A stretch of DNA of 29,354 nt from a virus: positions 1 through 29,354 of IMG/VR virus record IMGVR_UViG_3300006753_000040. The stretch is one strand, 5' to 3'. Of this stretch, positions 1,967 through 19,876 are shown piece by piece (positions within the stretch are counted from its first letter, which is position 1; each line of letters starts with the position of its first letter). Below the pieces are notes generated by a model. That model had not been told where the DNA came from. It ran no database searches and saw only the letters and a list, made by a program, of their open reading frames with translations. A program made the translations under genes and the position numbers.

Positions 1967-2181
1967 TACTTGGGCGCTTCTCCAAAGAACACCGGCTCGC
2001 CCTCTGCATCCCGTTTAGCCAGCATGTCCTTCACGCTGCTGCCGCGCACGAGTTGAGCACGGCCTTCGGCGTCGTACAGGGTGACCGACGCGTATTCGGT
2101 AGACTTGCGGGCAATCTCGTCCGTTGACCCTGCGCGCTCCGCCCAACTCGCGTATGTGTCGCCTTCTTCTGCTCTAGGCAT
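1966..2181 (-). CDS. Small acidic protein (71 aa)
   Basis: This is a 71-residue charged protein (MPRAEEGDTYASWAERAGST) with no recognisable domain. AAGGAG lies 7 bases before its ATG. The ATG lies inside the last codons of the upstream 728-aa gene (8-base overlap), and the stop overlaps the next ATG by one base, so this is a tightly packed, probably translationally coupled gene. Residues 30-55 (YASVTLYDAEGRAQLVRGSS) could form a small beta sheet. Function unknown. Confidence 0.65.
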   Translation of the reverse strand: MPRAEEGDTYASWAERAGSTDEIARKSTEYASVTLYDAEGRAQLVRGSSVKDMLAKRDAEGEPVFFGEAPK

Positions 2182-4360
2182 GAGCCGTCTCCTTCACTTT
2201 GCTGGTCAGTTTGAACAGGTTGCGGCCCCGTTCCGAACGGGCGATGCGCTCCACGCCGAACCCCATGTCGTACAGTTGTGCCGCTGTTAAGTTAGCGTCC
2301 TCCCAGTAGACCACGGGGACGGTCTTGAGAAAGTCCAGCAAGGGCCGTTTCCCCGCTTTCAGGTGCTGCCATACGGAGAGGCAGAAGGCCACGTCAAACT
2401 CCCCCTCTGGGAGAGTGGCGTTCATGTCCATCTCTTGGCAGTTCCCGTCCAACTCTGGATGCAGGATACGTGCCGATTCCACTATGGCTTTGTCTCGGTC
2501 CACGGCCAGGACAGACTCGGCACCTTCCTTCAACGACCGTGCAGAGAAGTACCCCAGGTTGCAGCCTATGTCCAGGACGCGCTTCCCTGCCACGTCGGGC
2601 TTCATCCAAGACCATCGCTCGTCGCAGTCCCGCTCCCCAACCCCGTCGATCTGCTGATAAGGCACGTCTGGCTTCGACGTGGACTTGTTGGCGTCAAACG
2701 GCAGGTTGTGAACGTAGGTCACGACGCGGTGAAAGCCCCGTGTGGCGATTCCAGAAGCCATGACGGGGACTGCGTAAGGCAGAGCGTCCGGGTGAAGCGG
2801 GTCGTAGTCGCAGAGAGCGGCCAGTTCGGGGTCAAGCCCCGTCTGGATGAAGTCGAAGTCGAAGATGATCGGCTCTCCGTCCTTGACCAGGATGTTCTTC
2901 GAGATGAGATCGCAGTGCGCCACCCCGCCCTTATGGAGATGGGCGAGTCCCGCCTGTATCCCCTGGAGAATCCTGTCCCCATCCTCGTCCGTGAAGTCCT
3001 TCATCTGGTCCAGGGGCACCAGCTTTTCGGTGTCGAACCAGTAGCGCCCGTCATCGTCCGTCCCCTCTCTCAGGATTTGGATGACGTTGGGATGCGGACC
3101 CAGGGCACGGACGGCTGCGTTCTGCTCCCGTTCGTCCTGCGTCGAGCCTCCCATGTCGTACTTCCGCACCACCTCGCAGCCAAGCTCCTCAACATAGCCA
3201 AGGTCTTCGATGAACTTGGTGTCGTGTCCGCCGTTGCGAACTGAGCCTTTAAGCTGCACCCGACTTTCCTTGAACTTCTGCTCCAACTCCACGTCGGCGA
3301 TAAGCGGCTTCCAGTGTTTGTTGTAAACGTCCTTCCAATGGTGGGGCTTGACCACCATCTGGCAGCAGGCCGAATGGTTCGCCCGTGCTTCGGGACTCAT
3401 GGCGTAGCAGTTCTCTAGCTGCTCCACATAGCCCTGCACGTCCAGAAGCGCGTTCTCCTCGTGCCATGTGACCGGCGGCACCATAGCGCCCAGGCCGTCC
3501 ATTCCCATGATTTCGGCGATCTCCGGCCTCTCCGTGGTGAGAACGGGCGTGCCGCACGCCATTGCCTCCAGCGCGGGGAGGAGCGCCTTGCCAGGGACGA
3601 TATGCACCTGGGACGTGGCGTACATTGCCGCCATCACGGGGTCTGTATACCCCATGTGGTAGGAGTAGGCGTCGGGGAACCGCAGACGGTCTATGGGCAG
3701 GCCCAACTTCAAGGCGTAGCCCTGGAGGTCGAGCGGCTGCGCTCCGTCCGTGTGGAGGTACGTGAAAACGTCCTCGTGGCGGGCCATAAAGACAGCAAGC
3801 GCCTCAAGCATACGCTTCCAGTGCGGGTCGTGAGGCCCAGCAGCGGTAATGAAGAAGGCGTCCTCCGGAACCTGAAGAGGCAAACGGAAGGCTTTCTTCG
3901 CATGCGCTGGGATTTCGCTAGTGAAGGCTGACCGGACACCCAGGGGGAACAGCCGTGGCAGCACCCCGCGAACCTCTAGCTGCTCCATCTCGTAGGGGTT
4001 GGTGGCAATGATTTGGGTCGACTTCCGCATGACCTTGCGTTCCACATCGCCAGGATGCCAGGCGATCCAGGTGAAGTCGGAGCCACCGTACTGCCGGTTG
4101 AACCCCGCGTCGCCTCTAGTGATGACGACAGGGGAGCCGGTAAAGGCTACATGGTGCTTGATGATGTCGTTGCCGAGGTTGTCGTCCCCAGGCAAGACTT
4201 CGATCCCCTCCCAGTCCAAATGACCGCCGTCGGAGAAACCCTTGGTGGGCACCCAGTACACGGTGTGGAGATCGTCACGAAGGCGACGGGCCAACTCCCC
4301 CATCTGGAGGGCATTGGCCGTCGGAAGCCACGGCGCGTCTGCCGCTAGGATAATACGCAT
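2174..4360 (-). CDS. Three-domain glycosyltransferase - kinase - methyltransferase
   Basis: A single intact frame of 728 codons joins three enzymes. Residues 1-355 resemble a GT4-type (GT-B fold) glycosyltransferase: a Rossmann-like start (MRIILAADAPWLPTANALQM) and the nucleotide-sugar signature around 261-283, LPALEAMACGTPVLTTERPE, with E265 and G270. Residues about 375-510 resemble a eukaryotic-like small-molecule kinase: possible Lys at 400 (VVRK), possible helix-C Glu at 412, catalytic loop H482-C-D484-L-I-S-K-N489 and D501-F-D503 in place of DFG. HxDLxxxNIL followed by DFD is the pattern of Kdo/WaaP-type sugar kinases. Residues about 580-715 resemble a class I SAM methyltransferase: VLDIGCNLGYFS at 595-606, acidic D621 and FDVAFCLSVWQHL at 655-667. 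Kinase plus methyltransferase is also the make-up of WbdD, which caps O-antigen with methyl phosphate, but there the order is methyltransferase first. It follows the capsid genes, so it may modify virion or host glycans; substrate unknown. The ribosome binding site is weak, and a strong hairpin lies 21 bases upstream. Confidence 0.9.
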   Translation of the reverse strand: MRIILAADAPWLPTANALQMGELARRLRDDLHTVYWVPTKGFSDGGHLDWEGIEVLPGDDNLGNDIIKHHVAFTGSPVVITRGDAGFNRQYGGSDFTWIAWHPGDVERKVMRKSTQIIATNPYEMEQLEVRGVLPRLFPLGVRSAFTSEIPAHAKKAFRLPLQVPEDAFFITAAGPHDPHWKRMLEALAVFMARHEDVFTYLHTDGAQPLDLQGYALKLGLPIDRLRFPDAYSYHMGYTDPVMAAMYATSQVHIVPGKALLPALEAMACGTPVLTTERPEIAEIMGMDGLGAMVPPVTWHEENALLDVQGYVEQLENCYAMSPEARANHSACCQMVVKPHHWKDVYNKHWKPLIADVELEQKFKESRVQLKGSVRNGGHDTKFIEDLGYVEELGCEVVRKYDMGGSTQDEREQNAAVRALGPHPNVIQILREGTDDDGRYWFDTEKLVPLDQMKDFTDEDGDRILQGIQAGLAHLHKGGVAHCDLISKNILVKDGEPIIFDFDFIQTGLDPELAALCDYDPLHPDALPYAVPVMASGIATRGFHRVVTYVHNLPFDANKSTSKPDVPYQQIDGVGERDCDERWSWMKPDVAGKRVLDIGCNLGYFSARSLKEGAESVLAVDRDKAIVESARILHPELDGNCQEMDMNATLPEGEFDVAFCLSVWQHLKAGKRPLLDFLKTVPVVYWEDANLTAAQLYDMGFGVERIARSERGRNLFKLTSKVKETAHA

Positions 4361-4436: not shown

Positions 4437-4949
4437 CTACGAGGCTTCATGTCCGATGATGTAGTCCATCTGAAGGTGGACTTCGAAGATGCGGCTGGTG
4501 TCGGTCGCGCCGTAGTTGCGCACGTGCACCATCGCCACGTCTCCGGCGAGGAACTTCCTCCGGGCCGCCGTCTTGTTGGTCAGGGTGTACATGCTCTTCT
4601 CCCCCGACGTTCCCGGCAAGCGCCAGTTCAGCCCGCCACCCGTGGACGAGTTCTGAGCGCCGGTTCGGGCAGCCATCCTGAGCGCCGTGGCGTAGGTCGC
4701 GGTCGTGTCGGCGGTGGCATGCTTCCAGATGGAGACTTCGTCAATCCCTGTGTTGGTCGTCGCCTCCATTGCGGCGTTAACCCCCCCGACCAGGTGCCGG
4801 TCGACGTTCGCGTAAGCTCCCACCAACTGGGCCGCGAACGGGGCCTTCCACACCGGACGGTGCAGCGAGTTGGTGTCTGTGGCCGTCTCGAAGTGGAGAC
4901 GGATGTCTCGGAAGACGGTGTATGGAGCCAGTCGTGCGTTGAATCCCAT
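4437..4949 (-). CDS. Probable head or virion protein next to the capsid gene (170 aa)
   Basis: The protein starts MGFNARLAPYTVFRDIRLHF and is mixed alpha/beta with many Thr and Asn residues, without membrane or signal segments. AAGGAA lies 6 bases before the ATG. It follows the major capsid gene by about 100 bases in the same direction, the usual place for a decoration protein or head-completion protein. I cannot match a known family from sequence alone. The C-terminal half (MVHVRNYGATDTSRIFEVHL) is beta-rich, which fits a capsid-surface or connector protein. Confidence 0.75.
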   Translation of the reverse strand: MGFNARLAPYTVFRDIRLHFETATDTNSLHRPVWKAPFAAQLVGAYANVDRHLVGGVNAAMEATTNTGIDEVSIWKHATADTTATYATALRMAARTGAQNSSTGGGLNWRLPGTSGEKSMYTLTNKTAARRKFLAGDVAMVHVRNYGATDTSRIFEVHLQMDYIIGHEAS

Positions 4950-5023: not shown

Positions 5024-5062
5024 CTCCGATTACGCATCGGAGTCCACGTCACTACGACGTGG
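5024..5062 (-). other. Tandem hairpins at the 3' end of the capsid gene
   Basis: Two adjacent perfect inverted repeats span the capsid stop codon: CCACGTC/GACGTGG (5044-5050 and 5056-5062, 5-base loop) and CTCCGA/TCGGAG (5024-5029 and 5037-5042, 7-base loop). Neither is followed by a T-run on the minus strand, so they are not clear rho-independent terminators. They may stabilise the 3' end of the capsid mRNA, mark a processing site or cause partial termination, so that capsid protein is made in excess over downstream genes. Confidence 0.45.
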
Positions 5063-5930
5063 GTGCGGTTATGTCGGCGTCCCACTCTCTGCCGAAGCCG
5101 TCGTTGAGTTCGCCGTACCCGTAGTCCATGATGAGGTTCATCTCTGTCCACCTGCCCGAAGCGTCGTACTCCGGGTCAAGGTGCTCCGCCTCGAAGATGT
5201 AGATGAGGCCCGCATCCCTGTGAGTGATGCCGTTCCTGACGTTCGTGCTCGAAGTCACCAGGTTGGTTGTGAGGCTCACAGGAACCCCGTCAACGTCGAC
5301 CTTCACCGGCATGGTGCGGCTTCGGAAGTTCTCGGTGGTCTGCTCGCCTGGGAAGGGGGCGTTCGCGGCGAGCGGCCTGCCCTCGGCAGACATGTCGTGC
5401 CAAGTATAAGGGTGGATAACGACGTTGATGCCCGCCAGGTCGGTCTGCGGTTCGCTGTTCGCCCTGATCTGGGCGATACCCGCCCGCATCTGGCCGATGG
5501 TGGCTGCCGAGCCGTCTGCGCCCACGACGTTGCCGAAGCCATCGATCAGGGTGGCGAAGTCTCCTTCGCGCTTCACAATCATGGCGTTCGCCATAATCGC
5601 GCCCAGGTCGCGCATCATGCTGTCCTTGCCGACGGTACGCAGCATCTTCCTCGTGGGAACGACCTGCACGCCAACCTCGGACGCGCTCACCGCGACATTG
5701 CTGTCGGTGACCTGCTGCGCCTGGGCCATGTCAACGCCCTCGGTCAAGCCGTAGGCGGTGACTGTGCCCAACTTGGGGCTGTTGTAGGTATCGTCCTGGC
5801 CGTCGCTCGCCTCCACGGTCTTGAACGCGTCCCCGATGGGGGTCACGGTCTCCTGAAGGGTGAAGCGGACAGCCCCGATGACCTTCTCTTGGATATCGTC
5901 AATCTGGGTGGTTCCGATTCCACCTGCCAT
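5052..5930 (-). CDS. Major capsid protein
   Basis: This 292-residue protein has the features of an HK97-fold capsid subunit. It has an N-terminal helix-like arm (MAGGIGTTQIDDIQEKVIGA), a spine-helix-like stretch around residues 100-125 (MMRDLGAIMANAMIVKREGD), an A-domain region containing INVVIHPYTWHDM, and a beta-rich end with ITHRDAGLIYIFEAEHLDPE and MDYGYGELNDGFGREW. No long N-terminal delta domain is present; a separate scaffold-like gene lies just upstream, which is the usual alternative. TAGGAG stands 8 bases before the ATG, a strong site suited to a highly expressed protein. Length (about 290-350 aa is common) and position right after the scaffold candidate support the call. It would form the icosahedral shell. 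Confidence 0.88.
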   Translation of the reverse strand: MAGGIGTTQIDDIQEKVIGAVRFTLQETVTPIGDAFKTVEASDGQDDTYNSPKLGTVTAYGLTEGVDMAQAQQVTDSNVAVSASEVGVQVVPTRKMLRTVGKDSMMRDLGAIMANAMIVKREGDFATLIDGFGNVVGADGSAATIGQMRAGIAQIRANSEPQTDLAGINVVIHPYTWHDMSAEGRPLAANAPFPGEQTTENFRSRTMPVKVDVDGVPVSLTTNLVTSSTNVRNGITHRDAGLIYIFEAEHLDPEYDASGRWTEMNLIMDYGYGELNDGFGREWDADITAPTS

Positions 5931-5941
5931 AGGTTTTGCTC

Positions 5942-6760
5942 CTAACTAAATCGGCCCGTCGTCATAAGGCCGCGATATTTCTCTCGTATCGATGCCTGCG
6001 TTTTGGCATCGTAGTCGTCGATGTTTGCCATCATGTTGTCGATGTTGTCCCTGGTGATGGCCCCACCACCCGCTGCGCCTGGGCCTGCGCTCATGTCGTC
6101 CACACCGGCCTCTTCCAACGCTTGCGCCACGGCGGCCTTGCTTGCCGCTGCCACGTCCGCCTTGGCCTGTTTACTCGCTGCGCGCAAAGCCACTTTGGCT
6201 GCCCGTACTGCGGCGTTCTCGGCTACTGCAAACTTTTCCCTCGCCTGTGCCAAACGCCCCGCGTTTAGATGCTCGACGCCCTCGTTGTAGATCGAGCGCA
6301 TATCTGCTAGCTCAGGGGCTGCCTGCTTGTCCAGCAGTGCGGTCCCGTCGCCATCGTCCAGCGCATCGTCTATGGCGGCCATCCCATCGTCGTTTATCCG
6401 CCGGGCTATAGTGGCCTGGACACGGGTTGCGTACGGCTCGCGCGCCGCTTCCGCTTCCTCGTCCATCGTGTCTATTTCGCCACTCGCCACTGACTGCAAC
6501 CGTGACCGCATTTCGGCCTCGAACCCATCGAAACGATCATTGAACCCGCCAATGAGGTCTTCGATAGTCTCCTGCCGCGTCATCTGGCCCTGAAGCGCCT
6601 TGAAGTCGTTGGAACCCTTAGTTACTAGGGCTTCCGCCGCCTCCGCACGCTCCTGCCAACTGATCTCCGGTTCCCCTTCGCCCTCCGATGTCTCCGTCTG
6701 CTCGACCTGGTTGGTCGCTTCGGAGCTATCGTCTGGAGCCTGGGTCTCTTCCGATACCAT
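5942..6760 (-). CDS. Capsid scaffold protein
   Basis: This 272-residue protein is very acidic at the N-terminus (EETQAPDDSSEATNQVEQTE) and otherwise almost wholly helical, rich in Ala, Glu, Lys and Asp, with a coiled-coil-like stretch at about 165-220 (LAQAREKFAVAENAAVRAAK). The C-terminus is short and basic (IREKYRGLMTTGRFS), as in scaffolds whose end touches the capsid subunit. It is the gene immediately before the major capsid protein, 11 bases away. AGGAGG lies 5 bases before the ATG. Sequence similarity among scaffolds is weak, so the call rests on composition and place. A promoter and a terminator lie just upstream, suggesting it opens the capsid transcription unit. Confidence 0.8.
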   Translation of the reverse strand: MVSEETQAPDDSSEATNQVEQTETSEGEGEPEISWQERAEAAEALVTKGSNDFKALQGQMTRQETIEDLIGGFNDRFDGFEAEMRSRLQSVASGEIDTMDEEAEAAREPYATRVQATIARRINDDGMAAIDDALDDGDGTALLDKQAAPELADMRSIYNEGVEHLNAGRLAQAREKFAVAENAAVRAAKVALRAASKQAKADVAAASKAAVAQALEEAGVDDMSAGPGAAGGGAITRDNIDNMMANIDDYDAKTQASIREKYRGLMTTGRFS

Positions 6761-6893: not shown

Positions 6894-7017
6894 CCGGCTT
6901 TCGGCGATCAACCATGAATTCTATCTTGCAGTTCCGACACCAAAACCAACCCCTGCCGATGATGTGCTCGGCGTACTTCTTGTTGCACTCAGGACACCTT
7001 ACAGGCTGGCATTTCAT
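6868..7017 (-). CDS. Small C4 zinc ribbon, Com-like (49 aa)
   Basis: The chosen start is the ATG at 7015-7017, whose first bases overlap the stop of the 2014-aa gene (ATGA). A longer frame to 7122 exists, but its first 35 residues are low-complexity and shadow the upstream gene. The 49-aa protein begins MKCQPVRCPECNKKYAEHII and continues WFWCRNCKIEFM, giving a C4 site of C8, C11, C27 and C30. This looks like the Com family of phage zinc ribbons; Mu Com is a translational activator of the adjacent mom gene. Whether this one regulates translation is inference only. Confidence 0.7.
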   Translation of the reverse strand: MKCQPVRCPECNKKYAEHIIGRGWFWCRNCKIEFMVDRRKPVDTLTVAV

Positions 7018-10000
7018 CGGTCTATCGCCAATCGGTTGGTGACTTCGCCGCCCTGCTGTTGTTTCAGCATAGCCACTTCTATCTCCAGGACCAGGTTGAT
7101 CGGGGCGTCTATCCAACCCCACTTGTACAGGATGCGCTCCAGGCGGAGAGCCTCGGCAAGAACGACGGGGTCGGAGCTCTGGGGCTTGCGTAGTCGTTCC
7201 TTACGCCCTTCTATCATGTCGATCGTCATGTTCAAGACGGGGTTCTGCTCCAGGAACCCCTCCCGGTCGTTGCTGGCAAGATACTCCCGATACAGGGGCA
7301 GATCACCCTGCTCGTCAGCAATGTCCTTGCCCGCCTCCAGGTACTCCCGGACGGACTCGCGGTCTTCCTCGAAGCGCATTACCATCTCACGCACCACGGG
7401 GTCGGCATACCGCTCGCCCCGATAAGTCTCCGACCCCGTCCCTGTGATATACGACTCGCTTATACCTAAGTCACGTGCCTCGCGTAGCACTTCCTCTCGA
7501 TCAGCGTCCCGCTGATCGAAGTCAGGGTCACCCGTCTCTGCGTCTTCGGGCGCGTCCGCAGACCAATACATCTCCGCCAGTATGTCCTCCACCTGCTGAT
7601 TAGCGTCCTTCTTTTCAAGTTCCTCTTGAACTACAGGATGATTCAACGCACCTTTGGTTTCTAAGAATCTTCTCTGCTTAAACTTGCTGATCTGGTTCCG
7701 TAAATCAGGCCCGTCCATAAAGGCGTCGATGTTGGCCCGCAGACTCTCCTCGGTCTCTGCCTTTATGATATCCACGTTGTCGAACGCCATTGCTATGACT
7801 TCGCGTACATCCGACGGCGGGCGTTTCTCGTCGAACTCTTCCAGTTTCTTCTGCACGGCAGGCTCTGCCAGGATCGCGCGCCGCTGGGCCTTGTTTAGGT
7901 CTTCTTCGGCCACATCAGGGAATAATCTCCGTCGGGCTTCCTCTTTCTGATCAATGAACCCCAATGGGCCGGACTTCAAGCCAATCCCCTCCGCCCCTAT
8001 GGCGAAGGCACCTTCCGCTATATCGCCTTCGGCGAGTTGCTTGCCTGCTTCTGGCAGGTCCTGTAAAGAGAACGGCGAGACAGCCTTCATCATGTAGTAC
8101 GCCGTCTTTTCGGACGCCAGATTCGCTAGGCCACGCCCTGACTCTCGTGTCCGTTCGCCTACCGTAGTCTCTCCTGAAGATAAATCCCATGCCTGCCGCA
8201 CTATCGGGGACGCCAGACTGCGGAGAGCATCCTGCGGCCTACCCATTGCGGTGAGCATGATGGCCTTCCCGATGGAGTCCCACGGGCCCAGCAAACTCAC
8301 GTCACGCCCGAATATCCTGGCTCGCATGAAGTTGTTGTTCGGGTTGCCGTCCACCCACGGACGCATGTCTGTGTCCCTGCCCTGGGCATAGTTGATAGCG
8401 TGGGTCAAGACAACTGCGAAGCCGACCATCTTCAGTACCGACCTTCGGGCTATCCGCTGGTCAAGGGTAGCGCCAGGGCGCAGTCCCATCGCCGCCTTGG
8501 TTACGGTGGACAGCCTGGCTTGCAGGAACTTGGGCGCGAACAGCGCGAGCTCGCCGAGCGAGCCTCCTGCGCGCTTGTGGGAGTGCCCTGTTAGGTTGTT
8601 GGCGATATCGGCGATACGCGCCAGTTCTCCGCTATTCCTAAGCTGCTGTAGGGTCTTACCCCGTGCAAGCTCGTTCCGAAGCATGTCGTCGACCAACTCC
8701 AGCCGGAGCGCGTCCCCGAAGAAGCCGAAGGCCCGGTTGGCGTGCCGGATGACCCAGAGCCTGCCCGCTCCGGCAGCGAGCCCCTCCCCTAACTGCTGCT
8801 CGCCAATGCTGGCACCGCCAAAGTGCAGGCCGTCAGCCACCCACTCCGATGAGGTGGGTCTCCCCGCCGCACGGGCGGTGTCGTCGAACTGGAAGACGAA
8901 CCGTCCTAGCACCTCGTCCCCGCCTTTAGCCCAGGCTTGCAGATTGACGCCCAATGCGGCATTGAAGGCTTTCGGGTTGTTGTACAGAGCAGCCAGGCCC
9001 TGGATGCCCAAACCGGAGTTGTCTAACGTCGTGTTCAGGCCAATTATCAGTCGGTTATAGCCTTTAACTCCTTCGATCCATGTCGCGCCTGCTCCGCGCA
9101 GCGGCCCCTGTTCCGCAATCACCTTGTTGGCAGCAGCGGCCAACTCGGCAGGGAAAGAATGCTGCTGCAATCCAGGCAGGTCAATGCGCCGGTCCTGCGG
9201 GATATTCTGTGACTTATCTACGGCCTTGTCCCACGCAACGCTGATCTCGTCCTTGTCGTCCTGGAAGTCCCGCAACTCCTGCTCGGTCTTCATGGCCCGA
9301 CGCTGCGCGTTCTCAAGGCGTTTGCCCCCACGACCAGCGGCACGAAGGGTGCGACGGTGCTCAAAGGTGAGCAGCCGTAACTCCCGCTCGACGTTCGCCA
9401 TAGCCTGCTGCTTCTGGAGCAGGGCGCGTTCTGTCCTGCGGGCAGTTACCAGAGCCTCGCGTTCGGCAGTCCGCATATCCTTCAGAATGTCGCCTTTCTC
9501 GATCAGGCCGTCCACTCGTGCAGCCATCTTCTCGGCCCGAACCGAGAGTTTATTCACCGTTGCCGTTAGCCGGTTGGCTTCCTTTAGGTGTGCCCCAACG
9601 GTGCGACTTAGACCACCCAGGTTCGGACGCGTGCTCGCCGCCCGCTTCGCACGGTCTGCTTCCAGCGAGGCGTTCCCCTCCCGAATGGCGTCGTTCAGGG
9701 CCTCTATCTCCTTCGACAACTTCCGCTCGGTGGAATTCAAGACCATCTTGCTAGTCCTGAGCTTCTGAATGTTCTGCCCTGCCTGGAAGGCGAATGTCTT
9801 TGCCTCTTCGACTGTCTGGGCCAGAGCCTCCCGTGCCAGTATCAGGTCTTCCTGTACATACGGGCTGGCCTTCGACGTAGCGCGTGCGCCAGTCGCGGCC
9901 ACCCTGGCACCCGTCCCCTTGGCAACGTTCTCCAGACGGGTGACTTCTCGCACCGCAGCCGCCTCGCGAACGTTCTGCCCCGCCAGCGTCTTCCTCCTAG

Positions 10001-13000
10001 CAGCTATCTGCCGCGTCAGCTTCTGGTAGGAATTGCGTAAGTTGGGGTCTATCAGGTCGGACGGTGTCAAGCCAATCAGTTTGCCGTCCGCGTCCCGCAG
10101 CGTCTTCAGGTAGTTCCCGATGTGTAGTTCCAGGGCGCGCCCGCCAGCGGTGGAGGCGTACCCTTCCAGAGCCTCACCGATAAGGGCGTATTCGTATCCG
10201 GCATCTATGCCTGCTGCCGCCGAATCGAAGTCGGCAGACTTCTCGAAGCTGCGCTTCCCACCAGTGCGAGAAGTAGTCTTCGGCACACTGACGGCTTCGT
10301 CCAGGCCGCCCTTCAGGGCACTGCCACGCGGGATGTAGAAACCACCGTCCATAATGTCGGGTCGATTGCCGATCTCTACCCCCGCCTCGTCCAGCATCTG
10401 CCGGTAGGCTTTCAGATCATTCTCCAACTTACGCAGCATGGCAAGTTGCTTATCGTTTAGGTAACGCCGGTACACAGGCAGCCGGGCCGCCACGTCCTGG
10501 ATGGTGGGCGCTAGGGGGGTTCCGGCAACAACCCGTGCGGCAGGGGCTGCTCCAGGGAGAGCGGTGGTGGGGGCACCAGGCCGTGCGGGGACTAGGTCAG
10601 GATAGTCACGAAGTACCTCATCGGGGACAGTCTTGCCTTCAGCGAGGGCATCTCGTACTAATGAGCGATGTAGATAATCAGACGCATTAAATTCCCCATG
10701 AGCATATCGACCAAAACGGCCCTCTTCGATAGGGATTTTATGTATAGCATCTAATAAATGCTCGATTTCATGCCTAACAACAACGAGTTTTGCATCTTTA
10801 GTAAGATGTATTTTTGAGCCCCTAGCACTAAACTCCCCTTGGTTAAATACCAAACGAGTAGCCCCTTCATTGACCAAGGGACCGCTTTCTTTTGTAGCAC
10901 GCAATCCACCGATTGTTACACCATTTAATTCTGGATACTTACCCTTGTAATAATCCAGAAGTTCTTGTGGGGTACTTGCTCCTGTATTATTCCGAATATA
11001 TGTTTCTGTTTCTACCTGTTGTCCCCCTGGCTGTCTAAACTCATCCCTTGTCCTCTGCCACGGCTCTTTAGCAACAGCCCGTGCTGTGGCGGGGGTGATG
11101 GGGGCTGCCTGCCGAGCTTCTAGTGCAGCGATCTCCTTCTGCGCCCTTTGTATGCTCGCCCTTAAATCCTTGGGGTATTTCACATCTAACTTATCAGCCG
11201 CAGCTATATAAGCCTCATCCTCAGCCGTATATCCCGTAGCCTTCTTTGCTTGTCTTAGTTCATCCCTAGCATCTGATAGGGCAGTCTTTGCCTCTGTTAG
11301 GTCATCGGGTTCGAGTGATCCATCCTTAATACCTCTCTCTGCGTCAGCTACCTCTTTTTTAGCAGCTTTTACCGCATCTTCGGCATCAACAATATCCTCA
11401 GCCCGCTGTGCTGCTGTTCGTGCCAGAGGAGGTCGATACCCTGGGTAGCCCGGCATTGCGCCAGGCTGTCGCACAGAATACGGTCTAGGTTTAGCCCCAG
11501 GGAATTTGGTTGTATACTCAACATCGTTAAGAAGGTCTTCAAGGGCTGCTTCGTCTCTAGCAAGCTGCCCTTTCAAGCGACCTAACTCAGTAGCCTCGTC
11601 TGGCGTAAGTGCAGTCCGTGCGGTGGTGGGGGCGGGTACATCAGCAGTCCGTGCGGGGGCGGGGGCGGGCCGTGTGATACGGGTAGGGCTTAAGTCAGCC
11701 ACCCTAGAAGCCCGACCTCCGCCTACTAATGCTGGGTCTATCCCTGCGAGGTTTTCTATTTGGCCCTTCTTGTTAATGTCAAAAACGCTGTTTATTCCGA
11801 AGCGCCACTTCTGGGCCATTAGGTTAGCCGCAGACGCAATGTTTGGGATAACGCGGGCCTGTTCCTTCATGGCCGGAGTAATCAGTTCATGGTCAACGGG
11901 CTTCCGTGTAACCCGACGCACCAGGTTCCAGATTTGCTCCCCGCGAGTTAGCCCCGGCTGAATTGGCTGCATCCCAATGACGTTAGTCGACGGCAGCGGC
12001 TCCGTGGCAGGCAACACCGTCTCCGCCATTCGCGGGTCGGGGTCGGGCACTAATCGCAGGAACCGTCCTCGGACCACCCGTGCGGTAACGGGGTCGGTCA
12101 GTGGATCAAAGAGTCGAGCACCAAATCGACCCACGTCCACGGCACCGGTACGGAAGGCCCTCTTGGCAGCCGCTGTGACCTGCGGCAGGGCTGCCCGTGT
12201 GAGAACCGAACCGGCAGGGCCAACCGCCGTGCCCAGGAGCGGCGCTGCGCTCGTTATGTCGATAAACAGTGCCAGAGCAGGGTGCATACGGCTGATTTCG
12301 TTGGGAGTCAGAGGTGGCTGGTTCGTCCCGAAGGAGAAGATGCCCGACGATATGGCCTCTGCCAAAGTACCCGGCTGTCTGGCGAACGAACGAGCCATCT
12401 CCAACAGGCGCTTGGCTTCACGCGTCTCTTTCATCTCCCGCAGCATGACGGGGTCGGTGATAGGCCCTTCCTTCGGCCAGTCGAACGTACGAGAGGCGAT
12501 GTCTCGGACGACCTGCGGGTCTGCCCCGGTTATGGAAGACCTTATGAAGAAATCTTCCTTACGAGTGTTTGCGGGGAAAGAGAAGTTCACGGGGTCTCCG
12601 CTGAACCCCCTACCAGTGACGGTGGACGCAACTCCCCCCACAAGTTTCTCGGTTAAAGCCCCCACTCCGGTGGGGATGCCTTTAAAGCCGCCCGTCACCT
12701 GCCTCAAGGCCGTATCTACGAATCCTCTTGGGCGATCATCGCTCGGTGCGACTACAGGAGTGCTGCCAGCAGTGCCGGCGAAGACATCCAGGCCAGTGTC
12801 GAAGCCAGTCTGTGGTAGGTGCGTAATGAACCCCTTACTCAGCGCACGTTGTTCCTCTGGCGTCCTGCGTTCGAATACCAGGTCGAATCCGGTCTGTTGG
12901 GGCTGTTGCGGGGGCTGTTGCGGGGGCTGTGGAGTCGCATGAACATTCACCCCCCTGGGATCGTCCTGCGGGAACGATTTCCGTAAGACAGGTTTCGGCA

Positions 13001-13058
13001 CTCCGCGCAAACCAAGCATGAGTTCCTTTATCCGTTTGCGAACTTCTGGGTCTGACAT
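7014..13058 (-). CDS. Giant virion protein with embedded HExxH module (2014 aa)
   Basis: A single 2014-codon frame. Residues 34-56 are a Pro/Gln-rich tag also found at the start of the adjacent 937-aa protein. Residues about 457-480, 652-667 and 823-851 are Pro/Ala/Thr linkers (such as RPAPAPARTADVPAPTTART). Between them lie a charged coiled-coil-like module (about 483-650) and a module with RHEIEHLLDAIHK, where H763-E764-x-x-H767 matches a zinc metallopeptidase motif. Residues about 1000-1330 are largely coiled coil. The C-terminal third has hydrophobic stretches (LKMVGFAVVLTHAINYAQGR) and then a very charged end. The place between portal and scaffold is where many phages encode MuF-type or polyvalent injected proteins, so I infer an internal virion protein ejected with the DNA; the peptidase-like module could act in the host or in maturation. 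The stop/start junction with the 937-aa gene is direct (TAA then ATG). Confidence 0.85.
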   Translation of the reverse strand: MSDPEVRKRIKELMLGLRGVPKPVLRKSFPQDDPRGVNVHATPQPPQQPPQQPQQTGFDLVFERRTPEEQRALSKGFITHLPQTGFDTGLDVFAGTAGSTPVVAPSDDRPRGFVDTALRQVTGGFKGIPTGVGALTEKLVGGVASTVTGRGFSGDPVNFSFPANTRKEDFFIRSSITGADPQVVRDIASRTFDWPKEGPITDPVMLREMKETREAKRLLEMARSFARQPGTLAEAISSGIFSFGTNQPPLTPNEISRMHPALALFIDITSAAPLLGTAVGPAGSVLTRAALPQVTAAAKRAFRTGAVDVGRFGARLFDPLTDPVTARVVRGRFLRLVPDPDPRMAETVLPATEPLPSTNVIGMQPIQPGLTRGEQIWNLVRRVTRKPVDHELITPAMKEQARVIPNIASAANLMAQKWRFGINSVFDINKKGQIENLAGIDPALVGGGRASRVADLSPTRITRPAPAPARTADVPAPTTARTALTPDEATELGRLKGQLARDEAALEDLLNDVEYTTKFPGAKPRPYSVRQPGAMPGYPGYRPPLARTAAQRAEDIVDAEDAVKAAKKEVADAERGIKDGSLEPDDLTEAKTALSDARDELRQAKKATGYTAEDEAYIAAADKLDVKYPKDLRASIQRAQKEIAALEARQAAPITPATARAVAKEPWQRTRDEFRQPGGQQVETETYIRNNTGASTPQELLDYYKGKYPELNGVTIGGLRATKESGPLVNEGATRLVFNQGEFSARGSKIHLTKDAKLVVVRHEIEHLLDAIHKIPIEEGRFGRYAHGEFNASDYLHRSLVRDALAEGKTVPDEVLRDYPDLVPARPGAPTTALPGAAPAARVVAGTPLAPTIQDVAARLPVYRRYLNDKQLAMLRKLENDLKAYRQMLDEAGVEIGNRPDIMDGGFYIPRGSALKGGLDEAVSVPKTTSRTGGKRSFEKSADFDSAAAGIDAGYEYALIGEALEGYASTAGGRALELHIGNYLKTLRDADGKLIGLTPSDLIDPNLRNSYQKLTRQIAARRKTLAGQNVREAAAVREVTRLENVAKGTGARVAATGARATSKASPYVQEDLILAREALAQTVEEAKTFAFQAGQNIQKLRTSKMVLNSTERKLSKEIEALNDAIREGNASLEADRAKRAASTRPNLGGLSRTVGAHLKEANRLTATVNKLSVRAEKMAARVDGLIEKGDILKDMRTAEREALVTARRTERALLQKQQAMANVERELRLLTFEHRRTLRAAGRGGKRLENAQRRAMKTEQELRDFQDDKDEISVAWDKAVDKSQNIPQDRRIDLPGLQQHSFPAELAAAANKVIAEQGPLRGAGATWIEGVKGYNRLIIGLNTTLDNSGLGIQGLAALYNNPKAFNAALGVNLQAWAKGGDEVLGRFVFQFDDTARAAGRPTSSEWVADGLHFGGASIGEQQLGEGLAAGAGRLWVIRHANRAFGFFGDALRLELVDDMLRNELARGKTLQQLRNSGELARIADIANNLTGHSHKRAGGSLGELALFAPKFLQARLSTVTKAAMGLRPGATLDQRIARRSVLKMVGFAVVLTHAINYAQGRDTDMRPWVDGNPNNNFMRARIFGRDVSLLGPWDSIGKAIMLTAMGRPQDALRSLASPIVRQAWDLSSGETTVGERTRESGRGLANLASEKTAYYMMKAVSPFSLQDLPEAGKQLAEGDIAEGAFAIGAEGIGLKSGPLGFIDQKEEARRRLFPDVAEEDLNKAQRRAILAEPAVQKKLEEFDEKRPPSDVREVIAMAFDNVDIIKAETEESLRANIDAFMDGPDLRNQISKFKQRRFLETKGALNHPVVQEELEKKDANQQVEDILAEMYWSADAPEDAETGDPDFDQRDADREEVLREARDLGISESYITGTGSETYRGERYADPVVREMVMRFEEDRESVREYLEAGKDIADEQGDLPLYREYLASNDREGFLEQNPVLNMTIDMIEGRKERLRKPQSSDPVVLAEALRLERILYKWGWIDAPINLVLEIEVAMLKQQQGGEVTNRLAIDR
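12892..12962 (-). repeat. 71-bp direct repeat, copy 1 (tag of the 2014-aa protein)
   Basis: Bases 12892-12962 are identical, base for base, to 15790-15860. On the minus strand it encodes a peptide beginning DPRGVNVHATPQPP and continuing as Pro/Gln repeats. Here it is internal, about 32 residues after the start. The identity includes all synonymous positions, so the duplication or conversion is recent, or the DNA itself is under selection. Confidence 0.95.
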
Positions 13059-15872
13059 TTAGGTCCTGACGACTGTGCGGCCACCAGACCGCAGCTTTTC
13101 CCTACGCCTACGCTCTTCCGCGTCCAACTGCGCCTGAGTCTTGAACGGCTTGGCAATTGGCAGGTTTGCGGCACGCGACTGTTCTGCCGCCCGTTGTACT
13201 CGTCCTGCTTTGTGCTTCGCAAGGAACGTAGCCTCCGAGGGTACGTATTGTGCGAGTGGATCAGGATTCTCCTTAGTGGGCACAGGACTGAAGCCCAATT
13301 TCTTCTCTGCTTTGACTTTGCTCGCTTCCCATTCTGCCGTTGCTGTATCTTTGTCGATGAGTTCCTGGCTTGCGACCCGTGCCGCTTCGGCTGCCTGCTC
13401 TGCCGCCATACTGAGTTTGCCGCGTGCGGTCTCCGCAACTGGGTCGAACGGCGCAGCCTCGGTTGGGATCGGGTTGCCTTTCGCGTCCACGGTAGGGCGC
13501 TGCGGGAACCCTAACGGGTCAAGTTGTATCCGCGTGGCGTCCAGCCGTTCTTCGTTCGTCAGAGTGGGCACAGGCTCGAACTCAGTGTACGTGGGTGCCG
13601 ATGGGTCTACCCCAGGGATGCCTCCGAACTCAGCGTACGATGGGTCTATCCCAGGGATGACCGGACGCTCAGTACGGTACAGTGGCTTCGGGACTATCTC
13701 CCCAAGCGGGTTGATGTCGAAGCCCTCTGCGATCCTATCCGTGGCGGCGGCACGTGCAACGTCAGGGGCGAAACCTGCCGCTATGAAGGTGCCCTCTGTG
13801 GTCTTCTCGTCTCGGAAGCCCTGTATGACCTTCTCCGTCTCTGCGGGCGATCCGTACGCCCCCGTCCCCAGTGGCCCCGAGAAATCCCTCTCCAATTCGA
13901 GTCGGCGCTCTGGAGTAATGCTGTTTTCGTCAAATCCCTGTTGGAACATGACCTCTCGGAAGCCCTCTTCGCCGCGCTTCGATGTCCAGTAGGTAGCTTC
14001 CTCTTCAAGTCGCGCCTTCTCCTGCTTGTCGAACTCTTTTTTCGCGACAACCTTCCCTGCCTGGGTCAGTACGGGATTCAGTTGGTCAAGAGCGCCTTGA
14101 AGGGCCGCGGTTTTTGCCCTAAGTATGTCGGCTGGGCCAACCGGGTCTGGCGGGCCAGAAGGAAACGCCCCACGAGTCAGACGGGCACCAAAGCTAGGAG
14201 CAGGCTCGGCGGCCTGAATCGCGTCAACGCTGTTTGCAATCCACTTCTTAAAGGCCGTTTTAGCTTCTGGCGAGTCAAGTTGGTCAAGAGTGGGCATACC
14301 TTCGATACCCTTGAGCAGAGATATCAGGTCTTCGGACGACTGCATCCCCGCCAGTTTGGACTGGAGTCGGATGTCGTCCTGATTCTCCTTGATGAACGCC
14401 CGCATCTCCTCGCGGGTGCTTCCGGCCAGGGTGCTGTAAAGGCCCGACAGAACGTCAGTGTGTAGGTCGTCGGTGCTTAAGCCGGTCGTGTTGAAATAAG
14501 CGTTCCTAACAGCCTTCTTGTGGTTGGTTTCGTTCGATAGGTCTGCGGCTTCGAGTTCGTCTACCGTGCCAGATATGAAGGACTCGTACTGGTTCGGTCC
14601 TCCATCGGCAGTCGGCGCAAAGACGCTCTCAACAAAGGCTGCTACCTCGTTGAACGCCTCCAGGGGTGTTGCGCCGCGCAGTTCTGCCGCAGCGCGGATG
14701 ACTTCGGCCTGCTCCTGAACGGTCTTGTTGGCACGGCTGGTGGCCCGTTTCTGATCCTTGTCCAATATGAGGTTCGGGTCTCTGGCTCCGCCCTGTTGTG
14801 CGATCAGGTCAAGCACGCGGTCTGTGAACTTCTTGTCCTCTGAACCGAAAGCGTCCAGGAGCGATTCCTCGGCACGCTTCTGCCTCTCAACCTGCGGGTC
14901 GAAGCCAGGGGCGTACCAGGCCCGCTCCTCGTCAAGCGTATCGAGCTTAACGTTACTGGTCATTGCCTTGAAGAAGCCGGAGTACAGGTCAGTACCGTTC
15001 GCCAGGTACGCGCCGGACAGGTTCTCGACCAGGAGCTGTGCCGTGGTCAGCCACGCCACCACGTCCTGAGTGAACGCGTCCAAGTTACCGATCTCCAGCA
15101 GGTCGCCGTCCAGGAGCTTGTCAACAAGCCCCAGAGCAACGTCCACCTGATTGCTGGACAGCATGGTGGCCCCGGTCTTGGGGTCAATGACGGTATTCCC
15201 TGCTGCGCGTATTGCTACCCCCAACCGATTGCCCGCCAGGGGGTTCATCCAGTCGACCCGTATCTCCTGGGACGCCTCTTGCAGCAGCAGGCCGACCGGG
15301 CCAGGCAGGTTAGGGAACGCTTCACCGAACTGCGACACCAACGACTCGATGCGGCCCGTCTCCGGGTCGATAGTGATGTCCGAGTACAGGTACTCTAACA
15401 CCATATCGTGCGCCCCAAGGGCTTCCTCGTCTGTCAGGGTGTAGTTCGTAGCCAGGTTGCTGACGAGTTCCATAACCAGCGTGCGGGCTTCGCTACTGGT
15501 GAACTCACGGAATACCACTTCCTCCCGTGGCGTTCCGGCCTTGGCCTTGGCCTCTGCCTCTCCCGTCAGGTACTCATCGTTTAACAGATCTGGATTGTCG
15601 CGCACGGACTGGACGTACTGGGACACCGACATGAACTCTTTCTTGTCGTTCGTCTCGGCGTCGATGTTCCACAGATCCCACGCTTTCTGCCCCTTCTCGG
15701 TCAGAGGGCCAGTGGCAACGCCTTCTGGGGCCGTTCCGGCCTTCGCCCTGCGAATGTCGTTGACCTTGTCCCGTAACTCGTCGTAACGAGTCTGTTGGGG
15801 CTGTTGCGGGGGCTGTTGCGGGGGCTGTGGAGTCGCATGAACATTCACCCCCCTGGGATCAAACATAGTCAT
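13059..15872 (-). CDS. Large virion protein with shared N-terminal tag (937 aa)
   Basis: The protein starts MTMF followed directly by the Pro/Gln tag at residues 5-28 that recurs in the next gene. The rest is long, charged and mainly helical, with many Ala/Glu/Lys/Gln stretches (KEFDKQEKARLEEEATYWTS). At about residues 738-765 is a short imperfect duplication (IPGIDPSYAEF, then IPGVDPSAPTYTEF). The end is strongly basic (EERRRREKLRSGGRTVVRT). No enzyme motif is seen. Its place after the portal and before the giant protein suggests an internal or ejected virion protein forming a pair with the 2014-aa protein. The start overlaps the stop of the upstream 64-aa gene (TGATG). Confidence 0.8.
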   Translation of the reverse strand: MTMFDPRGVNVHATPQPPQQPPQQPQQTRYDELRDKVNDIRRAKAGTAPEGVATGPLTEKGQKAWDLWNIDAETNDKKEFMSVSQYVQSVRDNPDLLNDEYLTGEAEAKAKAGTPREEVVFREFTSSEARTLVMELVSNLATNYTLTDEEALGAHDMVLEYLYSDITIDPETGRIESLVSQFGEAFPNLPGPVGLLLQEASQEIRVDWMNPLAGNRLGVAIRAAGNTVIDPKTGATMLSSNQVDVALGLVDKLLDGDLLEIGNLDAFTQDVVAWLTTAQLLVENLSGAYLANGTDLYSGFFKAMTSNVKLDTLDEERAWYAPGFDPQVERQKRAEESLLDAFGSEDKKFTDRVLDLIAQQGGARDPNLILDKDQKRATSRANKTVQEQAEVIRAAAELRGATPLEAFNEVAAFVESVFAPTADGGPNQYESFISGTVDELEAADLSNETNHKKAVRNAYFNTTGLSTDDLHTDVLSGLYSTLAGSTREEMRAFIKENQDDIRLQSKLAGMQSSEDLISLLKGIEGMPTLDQLDSPEAKTAFKKWIANSVDAIQAAEPAPSFGARLTRGAFPSGPPDPVGPADILRAKTAALQGALDQLNPVLTQAGKVVAKKEFDKQEKARLEEEATYWTSKRGEEGFREVMFQQGFDENSITPERRLELERDFSGPLGTGAYGSPAETEKVIQGFRDEKTTEGTFIAAGFAPDVARAAATDRIAEGFDINPLGEIVPKPLYRTERPVIPGIDPSYAEFGGIPGVDPSAPTYTEFEPVPTLTNEERLDATRIQLDPLGFPQRPTVDAKGNPIPTEAAPFDPVAETARGKLSMAAEQAAEAARVASQELIDKDTATAEWEASKVKAEKKLGFSPVPTKENPDPLAQYVPSEATFLAKHKAGRVQRAAEQSRAANLPIAKPFKTQAQLDAEERRRREKLRSGGRTVVRT
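13577..13658 (-). repeat. Imperfect tandem duplication within the 937-aa gene
   Basis: A 44-base unit at 13577-13620 and a 35-base unit at 13624-13658 share CGAACTCAG and TGGGTCTA plus CCCAGGGATG, the second lacking about nine bases. In protein they give IPGVDPSAPTYTEF and IPGIDPSYAEF. It is a local duplication in a Pro/Gly-rich, probably flexible region. Confidence 0.7.
15790..15860 (-). repeat. 71-bp direct repeat, copy 2 (tag of the 937-aa protein)
   Basis: Identical over 71 bases to 12892-12962, offset 2898 bases (966 codons). It lies four codons after the start of the 937-aa gene, so the encoded peptide is almost exactly N-terminal here. Homologous recombination between the copies would delete one gene's worth of DNA and leave an in-frame fusion. 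Confidence 0.95.
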
Positions 15873-16066
15873 CAGGCAGGCCCTCCAGCCGAGTCAAAGC
15901 CGTTCCGCACGTCCGTCATATCAAGCCCCTGCTCCTTATACCACTTCGATACAGGGTTCAGAGACGGTATCCTCATATTCAACGGGCGTGTGGACTTCTT
16001 CGCCTTCACCAGGCGCTTATGCTCGTCGATTACGCCCCTGACTGTCTTGGCCCGTTCGTCCGTCAT
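15872..16066 (-). CDS. Small basic protein between portal and virion proteins (64 aa)
   Basis: The 64 residues begin MTDERAKTVRGVIDEHKRLV and include KAKKSTRPLNMRIPSLNPVS and KWYKEQGLDMTDVRNGFDSA. No family is recognised. It overlaps the portal stop by four bases (ATGA) and the start of the 937-aa gene by one base, so it is translationally coupled on both sides. The tight packing supports a real gene in the head-assembly set. Confidence 0.65.
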   Translation of the reverse strand: MTDERAKTVRGVIDEHKRLVKAKKSTRPLNMRIPSLNPVSKWYKEQGLDMTDVRNGFDSAGGPA

Positions 16067-17772
16067 AGATTTGCCAGATCATCCAGCCGTTGCGGCTTGG
16101 GAGTAGTCTCGTCCAGCGGCTGCCTTGGATCGACTATAGGCGCACCGCCGTTACGGCCCGGCAACGCGAGTTCCCCGGAAAGAACCTCATTGGATACCGC
16201 ATCCGCGTCCTCTTCGGTAAGTTCCTCCATGCCCTGGGCCGTTGCCTTAGCTGTGATCGCCAGAACGGCCTGGCTTCGGCGCACCAACTGCTTGTTCTGT
16301 CGCAGCCGCCGTTCGGTGATGTTGGACTCGCCCGTCTTGTGCCAGTAGGTCTCGTCGTCCATCAGGCCGCGATCCCACTCCTGGAGATAACTCTGCCGCC
16401 TGATCTCTTCCATCACCGGGTCGCTGACTGCGAACGTCACGTCGAACTCGTAGTCCCCGTCTATATCGGCCCGTCGAAGATGCTTCCCGTGAGCGCCGAT
16501 GCCTTCCTTCAGCGTGGGGAGTTTGTCCACCACACGGGCGATCCAGCCCGCCGCGACGGACGCCATGTGCTCTTCCTGCATGGAGGAGCCGATGAACTTC
16601 CTCCGCCCCATGTTATCCAATTGGGCCTGTTGTCCCACGGTCTCCACGCCAGGCTGTCGCACGCCGCCACGGGCGGTGGAGCCGACGCTACGCTCGATGT
16701 GGTCGGCCACCTCTGCCCCCTGCTGGAACATCCAGCGACTCACTTCCTGGACTTGCAGTTTCCAGTAGTCCAGCGGGTTGCCCTCCAGGACGCCTTCCTG
16801 GTCGAGGGCTTTGACGAAATCCTCACGGTCTCGTGACGTGCCAAAGGGGGAGTATGCCTGCTCAATGACCATCGTATGCTTGGCCGTGTCCCCCTGCGCC
16901 TGTATCCGCAGCGTATCCTTCAGAGGGTCGAGCAGACCGACGGCCATGTACTTCGGGTCGTGCTTCTCCATGTCGGGAGGTTCCATCCCGTACCCCGCAA
17001 ACGCATGGGTGAAGGGAATGAAGCCCCAGCTATTCTGCTGCTGGTACAGGAACGTCTCCGACCCCAACTCTCGCACCGTCAGCCAGCCGTTCAGCCCCGT
17101 CCAGTGTCGAACGATCTTGACTATCTCCCACGGTTTGCGGTTCTTCATGTCGAACTCGCCGACGTGCTTGAGACGGCTCTTGCTCTTGATCAGCGCGGCC
17201 ACATCCTGGGCCGACATCTCTACGATCTTGATGGCAGCGTTGGGAACCTTCTCCAGGGGGTCAAGTAGCACATGGCCGGGGTTGGTTGCTTCCAGCCGCA
17301 CGGGGTTCCAGTAAGCGGGGCGACCGCGTTGGCTGCGCATGTTCGGGGCCAGTCCGACCAGGTCCATCTCGACGATGCCGTAGCCGAAGGCGTTCAGGTG
17401 CTTGCCCAGCAGTCGCCACGGGTTGACCATCGCGTGCATGGCGGCGTCCATCATAATGGCCTTCATCGCCACTTCAGAGCGGTCTGCCGCCGTCACCAGG
17501 TCGTCTATGTCGCGGTTGCGCGGCTCCCTGTGAACAGTTGGGACCAGCGCCTGGTACTGGTCGGCAGTATGGTCGATGATCGTCCGTGCTGTCGGCGGCC
17601 GGTAGCTCCCGCGTCGGGCCGCCTGGACATCCGTCCTCCAAACATCGAACTCCAGGTCGTAGAAGTCAAAGGTGTCTTTCCACTTGGCGCGGGAGGCCCG
17701 CCACAGGTCCGTCAGGTAGACCTGGTGGTCGTTCAGGAACTTCAGGTCAGGCTTTTCGTTGAAATCAGGCAT
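16063..17772 (-). CDS. Portal protein
   Basis: This 569-residue protein lies next to the terminase block and has the composition of a podovirus- or siphovirus-type portal. The N-terminal part has a Trp/Asp-rich start (FLNDHQVYLTDLWRASRAKW). A stretch at about 105-190 contains DAAMHAMVNPWRLLGKHLNA and GYGIVEMDLVGLAP, the usual place of the wing and stem approach. The C-terminus has a helical, charged region ending in a Pro-rich tail (PLDETTPKPQRLDDLANL). A portal forms the dodecameric ring at one capsid vertex through which DNA enters and leaves. GGAGG lies 8 bases before the ATG. The start overlaps the end of the zinc-finger/HhH gene by 8 bases. Call by size, order and overall likeness, no single diagnostic motif. 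Confidence 0.8.
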   Translation of the reverse strand: MPDFNEKPDLKFLNDHQVYLTDLWRASRAKWKDTFDFYDLEFDVWRTDVQAARRGSYRPPTARTIIDHTADQYQALVPTVHREPRNRDIDDLVTAADRSEVAMKAIMMDAAMHAMVNPWRLLGKHLNAFGYGIVEMDLVGLAPNMRSQRGRPAYWNPVRLEATNPGHVLLDPLEKVPNAAIKIVEMSAQDVAALIKSKSRLKHVGEFDMKNRKPWEIVKIVRHWTGLNGWLTVRELGSETFLYQQQNSWGFIPFTHAFAGYGMEPPDMEKHDPKYMAVGLLDPLKDTLRIQAQGDTAKHTMVIEQAYSPFGTSRDREDFVKALDQEGVLEGNPLDYWKLQVQEVSRWMFQQGAEVADHIERSVGSTARGGVRQPGVETVGQQAQLDNMGRRKFIGSSMQEEHMASVAAGWIARVVDKLPTLKEGIGAHGKHLRRADIDGDYEFDVTFAVSDPVMEEIRRQSYLQEWDRGLMDDETYWHKTGESNITERRLRQNKQLVRRSQAVLAITAKATAQGMEELTEEDADAVSNEVLSGELALPGRNGGAPIVDPRQPLDETTPKPQRLDDLANL

Positions 17773-18328
17773 CTGCCGTCACCTCCTCTAGGCCGTCCAC
17801 CCACGCCTTCATGCCGATAGCGAGGTTGTCCAGCGTCCACTCCTGTCCGTCCTTACTAGACCACACCGTGCCCTCCAGGCCCTTCTCGCTCCAGGTGGTT
17901 GCGAAACTGGCATTCCCGCTGAAGCGCTCAGAGAAGTAATCGTGTATGCGCAAACGCACATGTCTGAGACACGCCGGCCCCAAGCCTCGCACCCTCAGCA
18001 ATTGAGTATCAGGAGCTGCGTCTACCGCCTCTATGGTCTGGAACCCTCCGCGTATAAGTGCATAAACACCTTGGTTGATATGCCTATCCCCTTTAACGAG
18101 CAGGTGCCGCAGATCAGGGGAGACAGAACGGGTGATAATCCTTCTGGCTTCGCCAGCACTGGACAGCCACTCAGCAAGACGGTGGTCCTTAACGTGCTCT
18201 CTGAATCCGTACTCATGTGTAAAGCCTCTCGACACTTCCCCTACAAGAGGGCAGAGAGGGCAGTACCAGGCGTCGCCAACCTTCCACAGGTCCAGGGGGT
18301 CTACCATGCTAGGATGCAGCGTTTCCAT
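17765..18328 (-). CDS. C2H2 finger plus helix-hairpin-helix protein (187 aa)
   Basis: Residues 23-49 form CPLC, 18 residues, then HVKDH, a C2H2-type zinc site (C23, C26, H45, H49). Residues about 84-130, from NQGVYALIRGGFQTIEAVD to LLRVRGLGPACLRHVRLRI, resemble a helix-hairpin-helix unit and especially the RNA polymerase alpha C-terminal domain pattern (NxxxxxLxRxGxxTIxxL, then LLxxRGxGxxxLxxI). Such domains bind DNA or contact transcription factors. The gene is wedged between TerL (one-base overlap, TAATG) and portal (8-base overlap), where such a protein is unexpected. It could help DNA packaging, act as a DNA-binding virion protein or regulate late transcription. Domain calls are by pattern only; the alpha-CTD likeness is my inference. 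Confidence 0.75.
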   Translation of the reverse strand: METLHPSMVDPLDLWKVGDAWYCPLCPLVGEVSRGFTHEYGFREHVKDHRLAEWLSSAGEARRIITRSVSPDLRHLLVKGDRHINQGVYALIRGGFQTIEAVDAAPDTQLLRVRGLGPACLRHVRLRIHDYFSERFSGNASFATTWSEKGLEGTVWSSKDGQEWTLDNLAIGMKAWVDGLEEVTADA

Positions 18329-19815: not shown

Positions 19816-19836
19816 AGATGCAGTACTCCCAAGGCG

Positions 19837-19846
19837 ATTGTAACAT
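19837..19846 (-). promoter_or_regulatory. Extended -10 promoter for the TerL unit
   Basis: On the minus strand ATGTTACAAT (TGn followed by TACAAT) continues as CGCC and lies about 22 bases before the TerL ATG, downstream of a terminator. No good -35 is seen at the right distance, which extended -10 promoters can lack. The same stretch, ATG-A/T-TACAATCGCC, occurs in the rightward promoter at 26281-26294, supporting a real, shared promoter element. Confidence 0.5.
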
Positions 19847-19876
19847 GCCGTGTAAAGAGAGAGGGGCAAATATAGC

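Follow-up and report, generated by a model that had tools for sequence, protein, structure and literature searches.

The window, by which we mean the whole stretch of DNA analysed here, is a linear virus contig of 29,354 bases. Its minus strand carries an operon-like run of genes for a terminase, a portal candidate, two giant proteins, a scaffold-like protein, a capsid protein, a 170-aa protein and, two genes after the major capsid gene, a single polypeptide that joins a glycosyltransferase (GT)-like, a kinase-like and a methyltransferase domain. The features discussed below are the following.

18328–19887, minus strand: terminase large subunit, identified by profile matches
16063–17772, minus strand: portal protein candidate, with 60 matching proteins in loci retrieved with the terminase query
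13059–15872, minus strand: giant protein of 937 aa, between the portal candidate and the scaffold gene
7014–13058, minus strand: giant protein of 2014 aa, in the same interval
5942–6760, minus strand: scaffold-like protein, 5' of the capsid gene and kept in phages sharing this backbone
5052–5930, minus strand: major capsid protein, 292 aa, whose homologues match the phrog_267/544 major head protein
4437–4949, minus strand: 170-aa protein between the capsid gene and the fusion gene, at the position of a head decoration protein
2177–4360, minus strand: GT4-kinase-methyltransferase fusion, 728 aa (stop codon 2174–2176)
3281–4360, minus strand: domain 1 of the fusion, residues 1–360, GT-B/GT4 glycosyltransferase-like (profiles, AF2, comparison with 88 relatives)
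2726–3280, minus strand: domain 2, about residues 361–545, mini protein-kinase-like, phrog_3297 type (profiles, motifs)
2177–2662, minus strand: domain 3, residues 567–728, class-I SAM methyltransferase (profiles, WbdD-like motifs)

The original prediction had described an uninterrupted 728-aa frame at 2174–4360, which is indeed present, on the minus strand, a point left unstated there. The codon-position GC pattern is uniform over all three fusion domains, and the capsid and terminase genes show a similar one. The capsid protein itself gave no direct family match and was identified through homologues in other contigs; it is a candidate carrier of the modification proposed below. Profile searches with the 170-aa protein yielded no convincing family match. 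A reading of the locus as a defence system was set aside, PADLOC returning just generic kinase and methyltransferase matches.

Independent profile searches supported the predicted GT4-like domain (Pfam Glyco_trans_1_4, E = 6e-7; phrog_2170, E = 2e-10). Over this part AF2 pLDDT values are mostly 80–95, and the model matches the solved GT4 enzymes 6kih, MshA, BshA and PimA with Z of about 30, so that a GT-B fold is predicted for most of residues 1–360. Comparison with 88 relatives revealed several changes at the donor site: the first Glu of EX7E, an E in 82/88 relatives, is absent together with a 3-residue deletion; the RK pair, conserved in 88/88, is replaced; the GYG loop, kept in 82–83 of the 88, is lost; and so is one Asp that is present in 88/88. 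The second Glu of EX7E (E265) is retained. The domain is GT4-like by fold and sequence and does not carry an intact EX7E motif or the basic donor-phosphate residues. Since donor-site residues kept by 82–88 of the 88 relatives are missing, the earlier suggestion that this domain could add a sugar is doubtful.

The residues cited in support of a kinase (H482, D484, N489, D501 and D503) were found at their positions, forming H482-x-D484, N489 and D501-F-D503 with K400 as a putative further kinase residue. The kinase call itself stood, with a Pkinase match above the curated cut-off (E = 4e-8) and a match to phrog_3297 (E = 2e-5), but the proposed Kdo/WaaP style did not: the Kdo/WaaP LPS kinase profile (PF06293, E = 0.07) reached 13.0 bits against a cut-off of 21.3, and Pkinase, APH and RIO1 all scored better. 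The domain is protein-kinase-like and has the HxD, N and D(F)x residues of the WbdD type; homology to the kinase of WbdD specifically is weak, with hhalign giving 56% to a viral methyltransferase-kinase family described below. The fusion kinase is tiny, most of the C-lobe being missing. The kinase-methyltransferase half was modelled at low confidence (mean pLDDT 52), and its structural matches, class-I methyltransferases with Z of about 10, were given little weight; WbdD was absent among the 50 structural matches listed for this model. Because of the low confidence of the model in this half, the case for the kinase and the methyltransferase rests on sequence profiles and motifs, in which the SAM motif is retained along with the HxD, N and D residues of the kinase.

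The SAM methyltransferase assignment held (Methyltransf_25, E = 1e-7; phrog_9361, E = 8e-8; VLDIGCNLGYF at residues 595–605), and so did the resemblance to WbdD. A profile built from four sequences, the fusion methyltransferase and three mycobacteriophage relatives, ranked WbdD first among PDB entries (E = 4e-11), and this match included the R31–R36 region, described in the WbdD structure paper as a pocket unlike other methyltransferases (PMC3482155). Searched alone, the fusion methyltransferase found WbdD at rank 7 (E = 1e-4), with the 7SK RNA methylphosphate capping enzyme among its weak PDB matches, and it scored 28.6 bits against the WbdD-like profile and 32.9 bits against a general Pfam methyltransferase. 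Because the domain on its own scores no better with the WbdD-like profile than with the general one, the WbdD assignment leans on the mycobacteriophage relatives and on motifs. These motifs are Y568, R577-D-C579-D-E-R582, Q665-H666 and R713, which in the alignment match the WbdD positions Y16, R31, C33, R36, H133 and R203. Three of the residues essential for methylation by WbdD (Y16, H133 and R203) are thus matched, by Y568, H666 and R713, and the fourth, H132, is replaced by a Gln (Q665); the spacing from Y16 to R31 is 6 residues shorter in the fusion, and the match of R713 was made by eye. In the sulphate/phosphate pocket formed in WbdD by R31, C33, N34, Q35 and R36, the fusion's RDCDER keeps R, C and R and carries the changes N34D and Q35E; WbdD activity falls below 10% when exchanges of N34/Q35 to Asp/Glu are combined with H197E (PMC3482155).

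WbdD, the chain terminator of Escherichia coli O9a (PDB 4azs/4uw0), resembles the fusion in pairing a kinase with a related methyltransferase. Its domain order is methyltransferase-kinase-coiled coil, whereas that of the fusion is GT-kinase-methyltransferase, and it has no GT domain and acts on lipid-linked O-antigen. The fusion's kinase is also much shorter, and the protein ends 123 residues past the SAM motif, leaving no C-terminal extension for a coiled-coil ruler. We do not file the fusion as a WbdD, because the domain order differs and the C-terminal coiled coil is missing; the call of three domains is right and the analogy with WbdD is well founded.

Searches with peptide patterns found no close relatives of the fusion in IMG/VR or in 84,980 prokaryote species, and among 50,697 phage records there were only partial matches, to the GT4 and methyltransferase domains. 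Matches in two fecal contigs (L005 and L006) were discarded, as they fall in ordinary bacterial-type ORFs. The claim that no phage protein with this set had been described agrees with these searches as far as the three-domain order goes, which was not found elsewhere, but the novelty is narrower than that wording implied, given the split genes of cluster J mycobacteriophages (PMC3706429) and ORF6 of Klebsiella pneumoniae O7 (PMC11231755). The latter, like the fusion, holds methyltransferase, kinase and glycosyltransferase modules in a single chain and performs methyl-phosphate capping in vitro (PMC11231755), so that a single protein with three activities is not itself new. The order in ORF6 is methyltransferase-kinase-CBM-coiled coil-GT2-GT2 rather than GT4-kinase-methyltransferase, its kinase resembles AmiN and its substrate is a bacterial surface polysaccharide. 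The separate parts are therefore known, and what appears new is the domain order of the fusion and, as a proposal, methyl-phosphate-capped virus sugars.

The position of the fusion's GT in a structural operon beside the capsid gene is that of a virion glycosylation cassette, and the predicted link to virion modification gained weight from the recurrence of this neighbourhood in unrelated phages. Among GT4 relatives, gathered by sequence alone regardless of their neighbours, the gene lies 1–3 ORFs after a relative of the capsid gene in 16 of the 17 loci containing both (near-identical contigs counted). Pontimonas phage phiPsal1, Microcystis phage Mae-JY09 and many IMG/VR contigs likewise carry a phrog_2170 GT4 gene 1–3 ORFs downstream of the major capsid gene. 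Virion modification is the likeliest role of the fusion. We also observed fusions of GT4 to an FkbM methyltransferase (L024, L028, L048, L065, L068, L071 and L082), several of them downstream of capsid genes; these have no kinase. Unlike the fusion studied here, the GT4 proteins of this whole group, fused or not, keep their donor-site residues.

The same backbone, with related terminase, portal, giant, scaffold and capsid genes, also turned up in other phages. A search of 22 records from phages whose terminase is related gave no match to the fusion gene; as many of these records are fragments, its absence is firm only for the stretches read, and in four backbone-relative stretches other small genes come after the capsid gene. 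The best explanation is that the fusion is an accessory cargo gene of the head operon. Members of the capsid family of 5052–5930 share a short, conserved C-terminal tail, usually xAPTS, with or without a nearby glycosyltransferase. This tail was considered as a marker of the glycan acceptor; it occurs in 22 of 27 clusters with a GT and in 5 of 8 without (Fisher p = 0.35), and we rejected the idea because backbone relatives without a GT in the stretches examined carry tails that are the same as, or similar to, that of the fusion phage (TAPTS, TTPS and LPTS).

The closest parallel in gene order comes from cluster J mycobacteriophages (Omegavirus), in which a GT, a kinase and a methyltransferase are encoded as separate genes directly after the major capsid gene. 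In Baka, capsid gp10 is followed by GT gp11, kinase gp12 (phrog_3297), methyltransferase gp13 (phrog_9361), more GTs and the head-tail connector; the order GT-kinase-methyltransferase is the domain order of the fusion. LittleE gp15–gp17 are arranged in the same way, except that the methyltransferase is fused to a GT. The cluster J kinase and methyltransferase belong to the very families that the fusion matches, whereas the first GT of Baka is phrog_12406 and that of the fusion is GT4 phrog_2170, and the three functions, with several further GTs behind them, lie on separate genes instead of one chain. The cluster J insertion between the capsid and head-tail connector genes has been on record since 2013 with no mechanism proposed (PMC3706429). 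Fruitloop, TChen and Dante, cluster F1 relatives of Che8, carry a kinase among GTs at the right end of the genome, in the slot that holds three GTs in Che8, and Dante additionally carries a methyltransferase, giving the layout GT-kinase-(methyltransferase)-GT; the Dante kinase and methyltransferase are annotated as hypothetical and were assigned here by profile. Glycosylation of mycobacteriophage virions by phage GTs has been reported (Freeman 2023, as cited in PMC11600133 and PMC13313380). Scanning with the kinase profile gave matches confined to cluster J in IMG/VR, and two weak, uninformative loci in genomes.

A scan with the four-methyltransferase profile recruited a separate viral family of about 310 aa whose members, judging from the alignment, are methyltransferase-kinase fusions (for example in L103, L116 and L236). 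The profile of this family matches WbdD across the methyltransferase (E = 1e-17) and also aligns in the kinase motif, and its methyltransferases and those of the fusion and the mycobacteriophages match each other with 99.9% probability. Twelve of 40 distinct genes of this family are fused to, or at most 2 ORFs from, a GT4 of the fusion's family, and among 132 proteins around 27 distinct genes (clusters at 70% identity) the commonest neighbours were phrog_2170 GTs (8), major head proteins (4) and head-tail adaptors (4). In L236 the order is capsid, GT4, methyltransferase-kinase and head-tail adaptor. L207 encodes a methyltransferase-kinase-GT4 fusion adjoining another GT4, TerL and the portal gene, and a 1471-aa frame in L208 (2192–6607), which adjoins TerL, joins GT4, FkbM, methyltransferase-kinase, a further methyltransferase and GT9. 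A 768-aa frame directly after the capsid gene in L250 (6818–9124) combines a methyltransferase, two CTP-dependent riboflavin-kinase-like domains and GT2. These proteins resemble the fusion in placing a GT4 beside, or joining it to, a WbdD-like methyltransferase-kinase near head or packaging genes, and differ from it in their domain orders and, for L250, in the type of kinase and GT. The WbdD-like methyltransferase is repeatedly fused to domains of the CTP-dependent riboflavin-kinase-like type (PF01982; L105, L253, L255, L260 and L250), with shorter proteins in L105, L255 and L260 having one such domain. The methyltransferase is paired again and again with a kinase, which may precede or follow it and belongs to one of two unrelated types; this argues, short of proof, that the kinase makes the methyl acceptor. 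Elsewhere, methyltransferase-kinase genes adjoin a DNA polymerase gene (L231, L240 and L242), a poor fit to virion glycan modification, and one relative lies near UvsX (L115). At L207 (1398–6039) a thermosome-like gene, recognized by eye, stands beside the methyltransferase-kinase-GT4 gene, and this may be an archaeal virus.

Given these parallels, we consider it about an even call that the fusion modifies a virion glycan by WbdD-like phosphate-then-methyl chemistry. The glycan would sit on the virion, with proteins of the head or tail as its most likely carriers; the GT4 domain would contribute or position a sugar, the kinase domain would phosphorylate a sugar hydroxyl, and the methyltransferase domain would methylate the resulting phosphate. 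The product would be a methyl-phosphate end that cannot be extended, like the one made by the O-antigen terminator WbdD. We infer that this copy may be active in all three steps; the altered GT4 and methyltransferase sites and the small kinase mean that it may instead work on a glycan that other enzymes have started, or have lost a step. Methyl-phosphate capping is the best mechanism we can offer, and is unproven. Somewhat less probable is the general form of this proposal, that phages cap the glycans of their own particles with methyl-phosphate, by the chemistry with which bacteria terminate O-antigen chains, and have assembled the enzyme trio repeatedly, as split genes, in several fusion orders and with two unrelated kinase types, the fusion being the single-chain version. 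Phage virion glycosylation has, according to the papers that cite it, been reported only recently. A methyl-phosphate end would place a defined chemical mark on phage particles, would probably offer a means to control the length of virion glycans, would show up as simple mass shifts (+80, +94 Da) that could be sought in phages already in laboratories and would connect the head operons of phages with the machinery that terminates O-antigen.

The fusion might also modify a virion glycan without forming methyl-phosphate, the methyltransferase O-methylating a sugar hydroxyl and the kinase acting separately, on a sugar or protein or as a regulator. Most FkbM enzymes are O-methyltransferases, and GT4-FkbM fusions follow a capsid gene with no kinase at L024, L028, L065, L071 and L082. 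The Gln at the WbdD His132 position points the same way, as does the O8-type WbdD, a simple methyltransferase with no kinase (PMC3482155). We regard this alternative as unlikely, since the fusion's methyltransferase is not of the FkbM type and groups with enzymes beside or fused to kinases of both types and in both orders.

That the enzyme is degenerate or repurposed, with a catalytically dead GT4 that only binds a glycan or protein, or that the whole gene is decaying cargo, would fit the loss of four conserved donor-site features, the changes at WbdD-essential methyltransferase positions and the missing counterparts in the 22 records with a related terminase. Against this, the 728 codons form an unbroken frame whose codon-position bias is normal throughout the three domains, and the kinase HxD, N and D residues, the SAM motif and E265 are all kept. 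We rate this reading as quite unlikely.

Distinctly improbable, in our view, is a protein that caps or alters host surface glycans and so blocks adsorption of rival phages. The substrate of both WbdD and ORF6 of Klebsiella O7 is host O-polysaccharide, and some relatives lie outside head operons, but unrelated phages repeatedly have these genes at a site flanked by capsid and head-tail genes, which speaks against it, as does the co-location with GT sets in mycobacteriophages that are reported, in the citing papers, to glycosylate their virions. Modification of nucleic acids or nucleotides, suggested by the relatives beside DNA polymerase or UvsX genes and by the weak match to the 7SK RNA capping enzyme, is the most improbable reading, because the fusion lies among capsid, scaffold and portal genes and profile searches of the surrounding genes found no base-modification genes.

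Elsewhere in the window, neither giant protein had a Pfam match above cut-off. The 2014-aa protein contains RHEIEHLLD, a zinc-protease-like HExxH stretch, and has relatives in phages whose terminase is related. In the half of the contig that is transcribed in the opposite direction, the plus strand carries a GP88-like gene at 22416–23171 (PF17338, E = 8e-40).
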